Positions 13,397 to 47,925 of a DNA stretch of 64,000 nucleotides are shown piece by piece; position 1 is the first letter of the stretch, and each line of letters starts with the position of its first letter. A program made the position numbers and the translations under genes. Below the pieces are notes generated by a model that did no database searches, was not told where the DNA came from, and worked only from the letters and a program-made list of their open reading frames with translations. Origin of the DNA: an uncultured Alphaproteobacteria bacterium (GTDB lineage Bacteria; Pseudomonadota; Alphaproteobacteria; RF32; CAG-239); assembly GCA_944391615.1 (NCBI GenBank), contig CALXUE010000001.1:1-64000 (forward strand), in the 5' to 3' direction.

Positions 13397-14492
13397 CCCC
13401 ACAAACAAAGCACCCTTAATAATTTTAACGGCAGGCGGCACGGGAGGTCATGTTTATCCGGCAGAAGCTTTGGCCACGGAGTTAAAAAAGCGTGGCTACA
13501 GATTAGCTTTGGTAACCGATTCCAGAGGCTTAAACAATTACCACGGAACTTTGTCTGAAATTCCTAATTTTGCAGTATTGTCAGGGGCCTTAGTTGGCAA
13601 AAACATTTTTTTCAAAATCAAAAGTTTGATAAAACTTGGGCTTGGTGTTTTACAAGCGCTATGGATAATCATCAAAGAAAAACCCGTTTGTGTTGTAGGA
13701 TTCGGAGGTTACGCATCATTTCCTTGTGCCATTGCCGCAATCATATTAGGCAAAAAGCTCGTGATACACGAGCAAAATTCAGTCATGAGCCGCACCAATA
13801 GATTTTTGAGTAAGTATGCAACATTAATAGCCAAGAGTTTTCAAAACACCAAATATGCTCCTTCAAACGTGCCTTCAGTTTTAACCGGCATGCCTGTCAG
13901 AGAAAGTATCGTCGCCTTGCACACCAACAAATACCAAGATCTACCGGAAAATAAATTTCAAATTCTTATTTTAGGAGGCTCGCAAGGAGCCAAAATATTC
14001 AGTGAAGTCATACCGCAAGCCCTTTTGTCCCTAAAAGAAGAGCAAAGGAAAAAGCTCAAAATTTTGCAACAATGCCGTGCAGCGGATGTTGAAAACCTAA
14101 AGAAGCTATATGAAGGCACAGGTCTAGACATTGAAATAGCATCATTTTTTGGCAACATGGCTGAAATTTACAGTCACAGTAATTTGATAATATCCAGAGC
14201 CGGAGCATCTTCCGTCAGCGAAATAGAAGTTTCGGGAATTCCAAGTATTTTAGTTCCCTTACCCACGGCAGCAGACGACCACCAAACCGGCAATGCCGAA
14301 GATTTAGCTCGTGTTGATGGCTGCATCTTAATCAAACAAATAGATTTCAACGTTCTGCACGCAGCTGAAGTCATCAGTGACTTAATGGTAAACAAAGTCA
14401 AGCTGATAGCAATGTCAGCCAATGCCAAAAAAGTCGCCAAAACCGATGCTGCCAAACGTTTGGCCAACGCAATAGAAGAATTAATCAAATAA
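13380..14492 (+). CDS. murG: UDP-GlcNAc transferase MurG
   Basis: MurG adds GlcNAc to lipid I to give lipid II at the inner face of the membrane. It is a GT-B enzyme of 370 residues with the N-terminal glycine loop TAGGTGGHVYPAEA, GGSQGA near 200 and the nucleotide-sugar site SRAGASSVSEI near 275. The ATG at 13380 has GGAGGA upstream and overlaps the ftsW stop by 17 bases. Next comes murB, with no murC, unlike the usual alphaproteobacterial order. Confidence 0.97.
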   Translation: MTTKNNPTNKAPLIILTAGGTGGHVYPAEALATELKKRGYRLALVTDSRGLNNYHGTLSEIPNFAVLSGALVGKNIFFKIKSLIKLGLGVLQALWIIIKEKPVCVVGFGGYASFPCAIAAIILGKKLVIHEQNSVMSRTNRFLSKYATLIAKSFQNTKYAPSNVPSVLTGMPVRESIVALHTNKYQDLPENKFQILILGGSQGAKIFSEVIPQALLSLKEEQRKKLKILQQCRAADVENLKKLYEGTGLDIEIASFFGNMAEIYSHSNLIISRAGASSVSEIEVSGIPSILVPLPTAADDHQTGNAEDLARVDGCILIKQIDFNVLHAAEVISDLMVNKVKLIAMSANAKKVAKTDAAKRLANAIEELIK

Positions 14493-14506
14493 GGCAAAAA
14501 AAGACC

Positions 14507-15430
14507 ATGTTCAATTTTTTCAAAAAGTCAGACAGCATTCTTGACCTACTGCCGCAAGTCAGAGGCCGCTACATAGAACACGAACCCATGAAAAAACACA
14601 CATGGTTTGGCGTTGGCGGTCCGGCAGAAGTCATGTATTTACCCAAAGACAGCAAAGATTTAAGCTACTTTATGGAACTCTGCCCCGAAAACATACCCTT
14701 AAGCGTTTTAGGCGGAGGTTCAAACCTGCTTGTCCGCGACGGAGGCATCCGAGGTGTCGTCATCAAGCTGGATTCACCAGCCTTCAGAACATACCACATT
14801 GAAGAAAACCGCCTAACATGCGGGGGAGGACTACGCAATGTAGACCTAACCAAAATATTAATCAAAAATGGCTTAGGCGGCTTGGAATTTTTAACCACCA
14901 TACCGGGGAGCATAGGCGGTTCGGTCAAAACCAACGCCGGTTGTTATGGCAAAGAAATAAAAGATGTGATGCTACAAGCCGAAATCATCAACCGCACCGG
15001 AGAAATAAGAACAGTTCCGGTAGAAGATTTTCAGTTATCCTACCGCAGCAGCCTTTTTCCGGAAGACTGGATAATCACCTCCATCACCTTCAAAACCGAA
15101 AAAGATAGCGGAGAAAACATTCTTGCCAAAATAAATGAAATAAAAAACAAAAGATTAAAGACACAACCGCACAATGTCAAAACAGCCGGTTCAACATTCA
15201 AAAACCCCGAAGGATTAAAAGCATGGGAGCTAATCAAAAAATCAGGCTGTGACAAACTGTCAATAGGTGGAGCCAAAGTCTCCGAACAACATTGCAATTT
15301 TTTGGTCAACACCGGCAATGCCACCGCCAAAGACCTTGAAGATTTAGGCGACGAAATCGTCCAAAGAGTCAAAGCCCAAACAGACATAACCCTAGAATGG
15401 GAAGTCAAAAAAATAGGAATAGCCAAATAA
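14507..15430 (+). CDS. murB: UDP-N-acetylenolpyruvoylglucosamine reductase MurB
   Basis: MurB reduces enolpyruvyl-UDP-GlcNAc to UDP-MurNAc using NADPH and FAD. The 307-residue size and the absence of the type I insertion indicate type II. The FAD-binding motifs are GGGSNLLVRDGG and TTIPGSIGGSVKTNAGCYG. YRSSLF supplies the conserved tyrosine/serine region, and GSTFKNPEG sits near the substrate. It starts 14 bases after murG and abuts ftsQ; the usual ddl gene is missing. Confidence 0.96.
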   Translation: MFNFFKKSDSILDLLPQVRGRYIEHEPMKKHTWFGVGGPAEVMYLPKDSKDLSYFMELCPENIPLSVLGGGSNLLVRDGGIRGVVIKLDSPAFRTYHIEENRLTCGGGLRNVDLTKILIKNGLGGLEFLTTIPGSIGGSVKTNAGCYGKEIKDVMLQAEIINRTGEIRTVPVEDFQLSYRSSLFPEDWIITSITFKTEKDSGENILAKINEIKNKRLKTQPHNVKTAGSTFKNPEGLKAWELIKKSGCDKLSIGGAKVSEQHCNFLVNTGNATAKDLEDLGDEIVQRVKAQTDITLEWEVKKIGIAK

Positions 15431-44405: not shown

Positions 44406-44616
44406 GTAAATTATTCATCATGATTTAGCTGCTTATTTCAAGCGTCCCAAAACAAAATATAATTTCATCTAATTAACTACTTATAAATCATAGAATTTTG
44501 TTTTGATTAGTCCGTATAATAAGCGGGAACTGATGTCTATAACGACACCTTACACGGACTCAAATAACTTATTGATTTAAAAAGAAAAAAGACGCATTAA
44601 AGCGTCTTCATCTTGA

Positions 44617-44635
44617 TTGGCAGGGGCAGAAGGAT
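44617..44635 (-). repeat. 19-base copy of the tRNA-Trp 3' end
   Basis: TGGCAGGGGCAGAAGGATT is identical to 44808-44826, the CCA end and acceptor/T-arm side of tRNA-Trp. On the minus strand it is followed by its own terminator (44588-44607), as a displaced tRNA end would be. Confidence 0.8.
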
Positions 44636-44772
44636 TGTCCGCGACATTGCGTTCCGCAATGCTTGTTCCTTCTCGCTCATTCGCTTGTGCTCACCGGCGT
44701 TCTTTAAGCCCACCTTTCACTTGACGTCGAACCCTCTTGCCGGTTTCGAACCTTCGCCTTTCTCTCAACAAC

Positions 44773-44803
44773 AAAAGAGCCGCCCCTTCGGACGGCTCTT
44801 TTG
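44773..44803 (-). terminator. tRNA-Trp terminator
   Basis: AAAAGAGCCG and CGGCTCTTTT arms around CCCCTTCGGA give a strong symmetrical hairpin with T-rich ends. Confidence 0.8.
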
Positions 44804-44807
44804 TTGC

Positions 44808-44883
44808 TGGCAGGGGCAGAAGGATTCGAACCCTCGACACTCGGTTTTGGAGACCGATGCTCTACCAACTGAGCTATACCCCT
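44808..44883 (-). tRNA. tRNA-Trp (CCA)
   Basis: A 76-base cloverleaf. The acceptor AGGGGTA pairs with TGCCCCT and the CCA is encoded. The D-arm is AGCTCAGTTGGTAGAGC. The anticodon stem TCGGT/ACCGA holds loop CTCCAAA, with anticodon CCA. The T-arm is GAGGGTTCGAATCCTTC. In many alphaproteobacteria it sits directly upstream of secE; here about 2 kb of accessory DNA intervenes. Confidence 0.96.
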
Positions 44884-44976: not shown

Positions 44977-45005
44977 AATAAAAAGGAGATGTAATTTTCA
45001 TCTCC
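44977..45005 (-). terminator. Terminator downstream of the hppA palindromes
   Basis: GGAGATG/CATCTCC stem followed by TTTTTATTTTT on the minus strand. Confidence 0.75.
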
Positions 45006-45047
45006 ATTTAGACCATTATCCAAGCTCAATAAAAGGTCGGAGAACGA

Positions 45048-45138
45048 GGCAAATAATAAGATTTTAGGGGGACAACACCGGAGCGTACAAAGAAGTACGT
45101 GAGGATGTCGTCACCCCGCAAAATCTGTATTAGTTGCC
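45048..45138. repeat. 91-base palindromic element, copy A
   Basis: Arms GGCAA/TTGCC, TAATA/TATTA, AGATTTT/AAAATCT, GGGGGAC/GTC-A-CCCC and GCGTAC/GTACGT fold into one long hairpin with loop AAAGAA. It has exactly the same length as copy B. Confidence 0.8.
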
Positions 45139-45172
45139 CGTTATACAAGATAAACAAAAGCTCGTTATGTGA

Positions 45173-45263
45173 GTCGAATAATAAGATTTAAGAAAAATTG
45201 TGAAGGAGTGTACACAAGAGTACATGACTGAACAATTTATTCGCAAAATCTGTATTAGTCGAC
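45173..45263. repeat. 91-base palindromic element, copy B
   Basis: Arms GTCGA/TCGAC, TAATA/TATTA, AGATTT/AAATCT, AAATTGT/ACAATTT and GTGTAC/GTACAT enclose loop ACAAGA. It shares CGCAAAATCTGTATTAGT with copy A and is itself nested in an AAAAGCTCGTT/AACGAGCTTTT stem (45156-45279), probably the hppA terminator. Confidence 0.8.
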
Positions 45264-45291
45264 CACAGAACGAGCTTTTATACGAACTTTT

Positions 45292-47718
45292 TTATTCGTT
45301 TACATTAATCCTCATCGCATAGAACGAACGCCATACGAAGATTAACGCAATCAGCATAAAGACCGCACCCAAAATCAAAGATACATGTCTCGGAGCTGAA
45401 ACGGCAATTTCAACCGCCAACAAACCGAATAAGGTTGTAAATTTGATAATTGGGTTGAGGGCAACGGATGAGGTGTCTTTGTAAGGATCACCAACCGTGT
45501 CGCCAACAACGGCAGCAGCATGCAAATCCGTACCTTTTTCATTGAGGTCAACTTCAACCACCTTTTTGGCATTATCCCAAGCACCGCCGGCATTAGCCAT
45601 ATAGAGGGCTTGGAACAAACCAAAGACCGCAATTGAAATCAAATAACTGGCAAAGAGGTTTGGATCAAAACAAGCAAACGCAAGCGTGAAAGAGAAAATT
45701 GCCACAAAGATGTTCAACATTCCCTTTTGTGCATAGAGAGTGCAAATTCTCACAACTTCTTTGCTGTCCTCAACAGAGGCTGCTTTTTTGGTATTCAGTT
45801 TAATGTGCTTTTTGATATAATCAACAGCGCGATAAGCACCGGTTGAAACAGCTTGCATAGAAGCACCGGAGAACCAGTAAATAACCGCACCACCCAAGAT
45901 AATACCAAACAAAACTTCCGGAGCAAGCAGCGACAATTTAAGGTTAAGCAACAAAATGATAGAGAAAATCATCGTTGCCGCACCAATAACTGCCGTACCG
46001 ATAAGCACCGGTTTTGCAGTTGCCTTAAAGGTGTTTCCGGCCCCATCATTGGCTTCAAGGAAGTGTTTCCCGTTTTCAAAATCAGGTTTAAAGCCGAAAT
46101 CGGTTTCAATTTCTTTTTTAATACCTTTGATGTTTTCAATCTGAGAGAGTTCATAAACAGATTGAGCATTATCGGCCACCGGACCATAGCTGTCAACAGC
46201 GATGTTAACAGGTCCCATACCGAGCATACCAAAGGCCACCAAACCGAAGGCAAAAATGCTAGGATAAACCATATAGGCATCCAAACCTTCCCGCGCGGTC
46301 ACATAGGCAATTGCCATCAAGGCAACCATCACGATTCCCTGCCAAAAAGCGGAGAAGTTACCGGACACGATACCGGAAATAATGTTCAAAGAAGCACCGG
46401 CTTCACGGCTTGAATTAACAATTTCTTGAACATGTTTTGACTTTGGTGAAGTAAAGATTTTGGTAAATTCCGGAATAATAGCTGCAGCCAAAGTACCGCA
46501 AGAAATAATCACGGAAAGTTTCCACCACAAATCCGGCCCCATACTGCCAATCATCACATAAGAAACACCGAATGTCACTAAGATTGAGATGATGGAAGTC
46601 AACCAAATCAGGCTGGTCAAAGGCTTTTCGAAATCAAAGATTTTTTCATTACCATAGCGAGCTTTAGACAACACGCCGTTCAGCCAATAAGACACCATGG
46701 ATGTCACAATCATCAACAAACGCATTGTGAAAATCCACACGATCAAACGAGCCTGAATATCAATACCATTGGCCATCAAAGCAAGTTGTCCGTCAGGCAT
46801 ATACATCATACCCGCACCAAGAACGATAAAGCTGATAAGAGCCACACCGGTCACACCATATGTTTCAAAACCATCGGCAGTCGGGCCGACAGAGTCACCG
46901 GCATTATCACCTGTACAATCGGCAATCACACCAGGGTTACGAGCATCATCTTCATCAATTTTGAAAATAATTTTCATCAAATCGGCACCGATATCGGCGA
47001 TTTTAGTAAAGATACCGCCGCAGATACGCAAAGCAGCCGCACCAAGAGATTCACCAATGGCAAAACCGACAAAGCAAGCACCGGCACTGTCTCTGGGCAC
47101 AAAGAGCAAGATGGCAATCATCATCACCAACTCAACACAAATCAGCAACACGCCGATAGACATGCCCGAGCGCAACGGCAAACTCATCACCGGATAAGCC
47201 TTACCCTGCAAAGAAAGGAACGCAGTACGGGAGTTAGCATAAGTATTGATGCGCATACCAAACCACGCCACGCAGAACGAGCCCAAAATACCCAAGATAG
47301 ACCACATCAAAATAGTCAAAACCTTAGACATCGGTGTAGAGTTAAGGTAATAGAAATAATAAAAGATACAAGCGGCAATAAACAACTCTAAAATCACCAA
47401 GAGTTTAGATTGCTGCTTCATATAGGTTTTGCAGGTTTCATAAATTGTGTTAGAAACATTCAGCATCGCCTTATGAGCGGGAATAGCTCTGATATTGAAA
47501 AATTCATACAAACCAAAGCAAACGCCCAAAACACAAATCACCAGACCATAGAGCAAGATTTGACTTCCGGTCAAAGACAGACCGAAAATTTCATAACCAA
47601 CACCCAAATCCGGCACTTTCAAATCGATTTCAGAAGCACAAGCTTGAGAAAGACCGGCAGCCAGCACGGCAAAAACTGCGAGTGCGAAGGAACCGATTTT
47701 TTGAAATGCTTTCATCAT
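45292..47718 (-). CDS. hppA: Membrane-bound ion-pumping pyrophosphatase
   Basis: Couples pyrophosphate hydrolysis to proton (or sodium) export. The 808-residue protein has about 16 helices after a signal-like N-terminus. Substrate-site motifs are DDARNPGVIADCTGDNAGDS, FETYGVTG near 330 and VGDTVGDPYKDTSS near the end. GNTFKAT has lysine at the position that marks potassium-independent enzymes; the coupling ion cannot be decided by eye. I reject the 46-residue upstream extension because it reads through the promoter region and AAGGAAAA precedes 47718. Confidence 0.95.
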   Translation of the reverse strand: MMKAFQKIGSFALAVFAVLAAGLSQACASEIDLKVPDLGVGYEIFGLSLTGSQILLYGLVICVLGVCFGLYEFFNIRAIPAHKAMLNVSNTIYETCKTYMKQQSKLLVILELFIAACIFYYFYYLNSTPMSKVLTILMWSILGILGSFCVAWFGMRINTYANSRTAFLSLQGKAYPVMSLPLRSGMSIGVLLICVELVMMIAILLFVPRDSAGACFVGFAIGESLGAAALRICGGIFTKIADIGADLMKIIFKIDEDDARNPGVIADCTGDNAGDSVGPTADGFETYGVTGVALISFIVLGAGMMYMPDGQLALMANGIDIQARLIVWIFTMRLLMIVTSMVSYWLNGVLSKARYGNEKIFDFEKPLTSLIWLTSIISILVTFGVSYVMIGSMGPDLWWKLSVIISCGTLAAAIIPEFTKIFTSPKSKHVQEIVNSSREAGASLNIISGIVSGNFSAFWQGIVMVALMAIAYVTAREGLDAYMVYPSIFAFGLVAFGMLGMGPVNIAVDSYGPVADNAQSVYELSQIENIKGIKKEIETDFGFKPDFENGKHFLEANDGAGNTFKATAKPVLIGTAVIGAATMIFSIILLLNLKLSLLAPEVLFGIILGGAVIYWFSGASMQAVSTGAYRAVDYIKKHIKLNTKKAASVEDSKEVVRICTLYAQKGMLNIFVAIFSFTLAFACFDPNLFASYLISIAVFGLFQALYMANAGGAWDNAKKVVEVDLNEKGTDLHAAAVVGDTVGDPYKDTSSVALNPIIKFTTLFGLLAVEIAVSAPRHVSLILGAVFMLIALIFVWRSFYAMRINVNE

Positions 47719-47729
47719 ATTTTCCTTAT

Positions 47730-47843
47730 AAGAGTTAACACAAAAAAACAATAAACCAAAATCACCACAAACCCAAGTTGAGTGATTCTTTTTTATTATG
47801 ACGGTATGATAGATTCCTGAGTCTAAAAAATGTGTTAACTCTT
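47730..47843 (-). promoter_or_regulatory. hppA upstream region with inverted repeat
   Basis: AAGAGTTAACACA (47730-47742) and TGTGTTAACTCTT (47831-47843) are exact inverted copies, 88 bases apart, both around GTTAAC. They could be paired operators or the stem of a leader RNA. GANTC sites lie in and beyond this region. Confidence 0.55.
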
Positions 47844-47925
47844 TAAAATGATTCAAAAAAATCGCCTAAACGTATGAAAAAGAATCACAATTTTTTTGCA
47901 TTTTGGATTCTTTTTTTTCACAAAA

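Follow-up and report, generated by a model that had tools for sequence, protein, structure and literature searches.

Two palindromes downstream of hppA

The window, a 64,000-nucleotide stretch from an uncultured alphaproteobacterium (source genome G000; 1.57 Mb in 32 contigs), carries on its minus strand a gene named hppA in the original prediction (45292-47856; an open reading frame [ORF] of 854 aa whose true start may be further in). The TAA stop codon of hppA abuts an array of palindromic elements. As had been read from the sequence, two palindromes of 91 nt each, copy A (45048-45138) and copy B (45173-45263), have CGCAAAATCTGTATTAGT and AATAATAAGATTT in common, and the differences between their stems are compensatory. 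Around these cores, copy A extends over 45038-45147 and copy B, together with its outer stem, over 45156-45279, both on the minus strand and B in the sense of hppA. Both belong to the subtype that we call S1, and they score 119.8 bits (A) and 115 bits (B, at 45163-45272) with R1, a covariance model built from 35 copies. The stem enclosing copy B (AAAAGCTCGTT/AACGAGCTTTT, 45156-45166 and 45269-45279) is present as described, with arms that are 94% complementary; the outer stem of copy A is kept in part only. On the plus strand, copy A folds with a minimum free energy (MFE) of -40.3 kcal/mol (z = -8.2) and copy B with one of -30.8 kcal/mol (z = -7.8), and for each, 0 of 200 shuffles were as good. 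A further element has left a remnant of its left end (TAAAAAAGTTCGTAT; 45280-45294, minus strand), which overlaps the hppA stop codon; at this place, the relative G003 has a complete element of subtype S3.

On the far side of the array, an intrinsic-terminator-like hairpin is followed by a T run (44985-45005, minus strand), and similar hairpins occur at that place in G001 and G002. As the array lies upstream of this hairpin, it is probably transcribed within the hppA 3′ untranslated region (UTR). In the original prediction, the outer stem of copy B was said to look like the hppA terminator; the conventional terminator GGAGATGAAAATTACATCTCC-TTTTTATTTT further downstream (45005-44985 on the minus strand) speaks against this, and the element probably does not serve as the main hppA terminator. 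The variable spacer is bounded on the side opposite hppA by a tRNA gene with anticodon CCA (44811-44883, minus strand; Trp, from the sequence; RF00005, E = 1e-14), which is present in most relatives too. Beyond the tRNA gene, the stretch at 44577-44820 contains another terminator-like hairpin (AACAAAAGAGCCG..CGGCTCTTTTGTT), and part of the tRNA 3′ end is duplicated there (GGCAGGGGCAGAAGGATT).

A repeat family with a constrained fold

The source genome gave 25 BLAST matches to the element, and the covariance-model search that had been proposed as a check returned 24 matches at E < 1e-9 with R1 (the E values of this and our other models are rough, as calibration was short). BLAST matches were found in 10 of 10 genomes of the same genus (6 to 34 each) and in most genomes of the family; among 15 genomes from outside the order, there were none. 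The hosts near the window are MAGs of uncultured gut Alphaproteobacteria; these are split into many contigs, whose ends truncate several copies. Within the class, 26 of 289 genomes had matches to R1. At least three subtypes have the outer loop, the apex and the size in common but not the middle stems: S1, to which A and B belong, is marked by CTAATACAGATTT, S2 by GTGCGTTGTCTGCGGG..CCCTTGACGCCTACTA, and S3 by AACAGCACATCTAGAGGCATTTTAC. The apex pattern CTCACGTAC-N4-7-GTACGCTSCG, counted as exact matches only, occurs in 17 of the 289 alphaproteobacterial genomes, with 118 copies in the 0.9-Mb genome G177 and 31 in G167; neither the backwards pattern nor a TCA-permuted one gave any match. The copies in G177 and G167 form even longer palindromes around the same apex. 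Loci L269-L279 (G177) and L280-L286 (G167) hold very long, near-perfect palindromes at high density, with MFEs down to -89 kcal/mol; many of these lie at contig ends and probably break assemblies.

Copies also stand in unusual surroundings elsewhere in the source genome. A span matched by the permuted alphaproteobacterial tmRNA models (L019, 290-1007; contig C10, ~13990-14706) encloses two copies of S1 and one S2-like copy, probably in the spacer between the two tmRNA pieces. A composite of ~600 to 700 bp recurs in at least five copies (L012, L013, L016, L017 and L018, on contigs C7, C14 and C22). Its parts are a small XRE-like helix-turn-helix gene (80 aa; family assigned by eye), an element that is either S2 or partial, and the inverted-repeat region GGCGGAGCTC..CCGTCGGCTACCTCTAACCGACAG; truncated left ends of S1 often lie on its flanks.

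Read on the minus strand, in the sense of hppA, the element consists, from the outside inward, of an outer stem, a 3x3 loop (TAT/CTC or CTC/TAT), a stem, a C·T mismatch, an AATA/TATT stem, a bulged C, a stem of the AGATTT type, a TGC/TT internal loop and a variable stem; at the apex, a TCA/CT loop is followed by a 5-bp apical stem and a loop of about six bases. With a hand-curated structure, S1 was paired in 95.9% of cells, versus 75.9% after shuffling and 40 to 48% after sliding, and 275 cells were compensated on both sides, versus 88 in shuffles. In S2 (alignment A3), pairing was 98.2%, versus 88.7% after shuffling. Several unpaired positions are nearly fixed among the 35 aligned copies: the bulged C (the bulged G of the other strand) is kept in 35, the C of the C·T mismatch (described earlier as A-G) in 33, the TCA of the apical loop in 33 to 35 and its CT in 35; the TGC/TT internal loop hardly varies either. 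Further copies and conserved pairing, on which the original prediction had been staked, are both present.

Covariation strongly supports a fold under constraint, and to this extent, the proposed selection on structure stands; it may act on RNA or on a DNA hairpin needed for mobility. Folding is good on both strands and on average slightly better for the reverse complement, so we do not claim either strand as functional. A test for an RNA strand, in which S2 had 81 G·T against 2 A·C pairs, was discarded because the structure had been predicted on that same strand.

Insertion at TA and position at stop codons

When the hppA 3′ region was compared across relatives, the spacer up to the tRNA gene differed in nearly every one. 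It contains S1+S1 in G000, S3+S1+S1 in G003 (where the contig ends inside it), S2+S3 in G001, S2 in G002, S3, S1 and S2 in G010, S1+S3 in G005, and no element in G004 and G008; where relatives lack the element, plain, unrelated hairpins stand downstream of hppA. The S3 element of G003 is reduced in G000 to its left end, beside copy B, which suggests a loss between repeated left ends. Neighboring copies form arrays, and subtypes have been gained, lost and exchanged between species; arrays and partial copies are common.

Two comparisons of filled and empty sites show that the element has TA at both ends and inserts at TA with target duplication. The filled site ATT-TAAAACTCA..TGAGTTTTA-ATTATT in G000 corresponds to the empty ATT-TA(A/G)AA in G002 and G007, where the flanks have diverged and the right border is less certain, and the filled TAAT-TAAACTGTG..CACAGTT-TA-AG in G003 and G001 corresponds to the empty TAAT-TA-AGG in G008. 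At three loci, the unit spans 124 bp from TA to TA; copies in tandem arrays often lack an intact TA on the right. The mobile unit includes the outer stem, whose arms are paired yet differ between copies (AAAAGTTCG, AAACTGTG, AATCGCC and others). A mobile palindrome of the rickettsial kind had been suggested beforehand. Its mobility is borne out by the many copies, the filled and empty sites and the TA duplication, but its type is not, as the element is ERIC-like and placed at stop codons.

We examined 58 clusters of copies with callable flanking ORFs, genes being called by a simple ORF rule. Upstream genes had the same sense in 48 clusters (binomial P = 2e-7 if independent), and 39 clusters began within 21 nt of the upstream stop codon or overlapped it, versus 4.2 expected for random place and strand; the 58 include orthologous loci and are partly dependent, so these probabilities overstate independence. 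The stop codon was TAA in 33 of the 36 closest clusters, and in several, the element's left end is formed by the TA of this stop. About ten clusters at upstream stop codons are from G000 alone. Clusters stand between genes, and no in-frame insertion in a gene was seen among them.

A probable relationship to ERIC, and alternative explanations

For comparison with ERIC, we used a consensus that was checked on real sequence (92.9% identity in Escherichia coli), together with an alignment of eleven natural ERICs from E. coli, Citrobacter, Klebsiella, Lelliottia, Salmonella and Vibrio. The primary sequence is clearly similar in subtype S2 only. An ERIC model (R2) matched an S2 copy with 29.2 bits (E = 1.1e-4 in 80 kb), further copies ranked below it in register, and five of the six best matches of an S2 model (R3) fell on ERICs at the identical position (best E = 0.005; background, 50 kb of E. 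coli). A sequence-only ERIC profile HMM (nhmmer) put S2-type copies at the top of its ranking in 340 kb (best E = 0.014), and its reversed control gave nothing under an E of 1. None of 3,000 palindrome-preserving shuffles aligned with the ERIC consensus as well as S2 did. The similarity of S1 to ERIC is weak (14.4 bits at best with R1; 9 of 3,000 shuffles as good).

In architecture, both are one long imperfect palindrome (124 bp here and 127 bp in ERIC) with TA ends and TA duplication, an apical TCA/CTC loop on a 5-bp stem, and a TGCG..CTT internal loop at a nearly equal distance from the apex; both occur in tens of copies and have longer versions with an insert. The likeness extends to position and orientation at stop codons: one ERIC (L049) stands one base behind a TAA stop and has the same orientation, and Yersinia ERICs at stop codons reportedly have a preferred orientation, as De Gregorio is said to have described in 2005. 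The present element differs in having three stem subtypes in one genome and a variable outer inverted repeat, where ERIC has a constant 7-bp terminal repeat of the TATACCC type. Its hosts, too, are Alphaproteobacteria and not Enterobacteriaceae or Vibrionaceae, the range given for ERIC in reviews (PMC10969869); the literature that we searched contained no report of ERIC in Alphaproteobacteria. Each similarity result is modest, but with the size, TA ends, TA duplication and stop-codon orientation added, common descent is likelier than convergence. Copies A and B are probably copies of a non-autonomous mobile element (MITE) of ~124 bp that is a distant alphaproteobacterial relative of ERIC. The element looks like an ERIC-like family in another class; so far, ERIC had been recorded from enteric bacteria and vibrios alone.

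Rickettsia palindromic elements (RPEs; 105 to 146 bp [PMC2229807]) are likewise alphaproteobacterial palindromic repeats, but they insert in frame inside genes, whereas the present element stands at or behind stop codons; the distinction drawn here is one of position. NEMIS/Correia elements and RUP resemble it as hairpin MITEs of 100 to 200 bp with TA ends at gene borders. However, the ends of the present element vary, while RUP is tied to IS630 by constant inverted repeats (PMC2229807), and no IS630-type transposase gene (DDE_3, PF13358) was found in G000; such genes, partly broken, are present in G167 and G177. As neither an IS630-type nor a Y1 (RAYT, PF01797) transposase gene was found in G000, nothing there is known to move the element, and its mobilizer may be gone. 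Integron attC sites were also considered, for the bulges and arrays, and were rejected by eye, as no matching core sites were seen and the arrays have no cassette genes.

The resemblance to ERIC might instead have arisen by convergence in an independent TA-inserting palindromic MITE of Alphaproteobacteria. TA ends are common to most long-hairpin MITEs (PMC2229807) and S1 itself matches ERIC weakly, but we consider this unlikely, since GTGCGTTGkCTGC, TCAC-stem-GCT and CTTGmCGCC are common to S2 and ERIC in order and register and the placement and orientation at stop codons match as well. A somewhat better, though still doubtful, alternative is a structured 3′ UTR RNA (an mRNA stabilizer, a processing site or a source of sRNA) that is selected locus by locus and whose spread is incidental. 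Such an RNA would fit the sense bias at stop codons, the strong covariation with near-invariant loops, and the separate terminator downstream of the array. It does not fit orthologous loci that lack the element or carry other subtypes, the frequency of arrays and partial copies, or folding without strand preference, and an Rfam search found no family that matches the element.

That the element is the intrinsic terminator of hppA, with copy B inserted into the terminator stem or forming it, seems improbable to us. Directly behind the stop codon there is indeed an outer stem flanked by A and T runs (AAAAGCTCG/CGAGCTTTT), but this stem belongs to the mobile unit, a classic terminator with counterparts in G001 and G002 follows downstream, and the hairpins of relatives without the element are plain and unrelated. 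Long palindromes undergo template-switch correction between their arms, and the compensatory changes could be a by-product of this process in cruciforms rather than of selection, in line with stems that change completely between subtypes. Such correction should erase mismatches and bulges, which instead vary least of all positions, and we give this explanation little credence. Least probable by far, and already disfavored, is a REP/REPIN-type repeat mobilized by a Y1 (RAYT) transposase. REPs are likewise palindromic, intergenic, numerous and arrayed in tandem, and Y1 transposases are present in the relatives G003 and G010; however, REPs are units of 20 to 40 bp, for which the size and TA duplication seen here are wrong, and no Y1 gene was found in G000 or in G177 and G167, the richest in apex copies among the genomes scanned.

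Under the preferred reading as an ERIC-like MITE, the mobilizing protein would recognize the fold itself, i.e., the stems, the TCA/CT apex and the bulges. We infer this from end and stem sequences that vary while loops persist, which points to the folded strand as what is recognized. Stem sequences could then drift freely as long as pairing and loops persist. The element mostly lands at TA on or near a TAA stop, in the same sense as the gene, and the hairpin would thereafter be transcribed as part of the 3′ UTR, where it could affect mRNA decay. An effect on mRNA is likely only by analogy with Yersinia, where ERICs beside stop codons are reported to affect mRNA via an RNase E site (PMC2229807, PMC10969869). 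Against the preferred reading stand the weak similarity to ERIC of S1, the subtype in the window, the failure to find an IS630-type or Y1 transposase gene in G000, and the outer inverted repeat, which is not constant in sequence, unlike the usual end recognized by a transposase.

ERIC is used worldwide for typing, and its origin and mobilizer are unknown (for the mobilizer, see PMC2229807). With several subtypes in one genome, sites that are filled or empty in close species, and strong covariation, a sister family from another class would offer comparative material that ERIC alone lacks and would separate features that are kept (pairing, bulges and apex) from those that are free (stem sequence and ends). 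Genomes with over 100 copies are places to seek the mobilizer. As a tentative extension, which we hold to be possible but doubtful, ERIC might be one branch of a wider Pseudomonadota superfamily of hairpin MITEs that is marked by the apical TCA/CT(C/G) loop and most expanded in small-genome Alphaproteobacteria such as G177. The folded strand, not the end sequence, would be the substrate of one shared mobilizing machinery with a preference for TA at stop codons.

At L010 (550-1330) and at L205, the hppA 3′ region of G005, a second module, CTTAGGCATCTAGTTTCGC..CCTAGCTCAACAAGATGTTCCAAAGA..hairpin..CTTAGC, lies inside the apex of S1 and S3 copies. This module may be a small element in its own right with the apex as its target, much as longer ERICs in Salmonella carry an insert. 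Its own hairpins vary with compensation.
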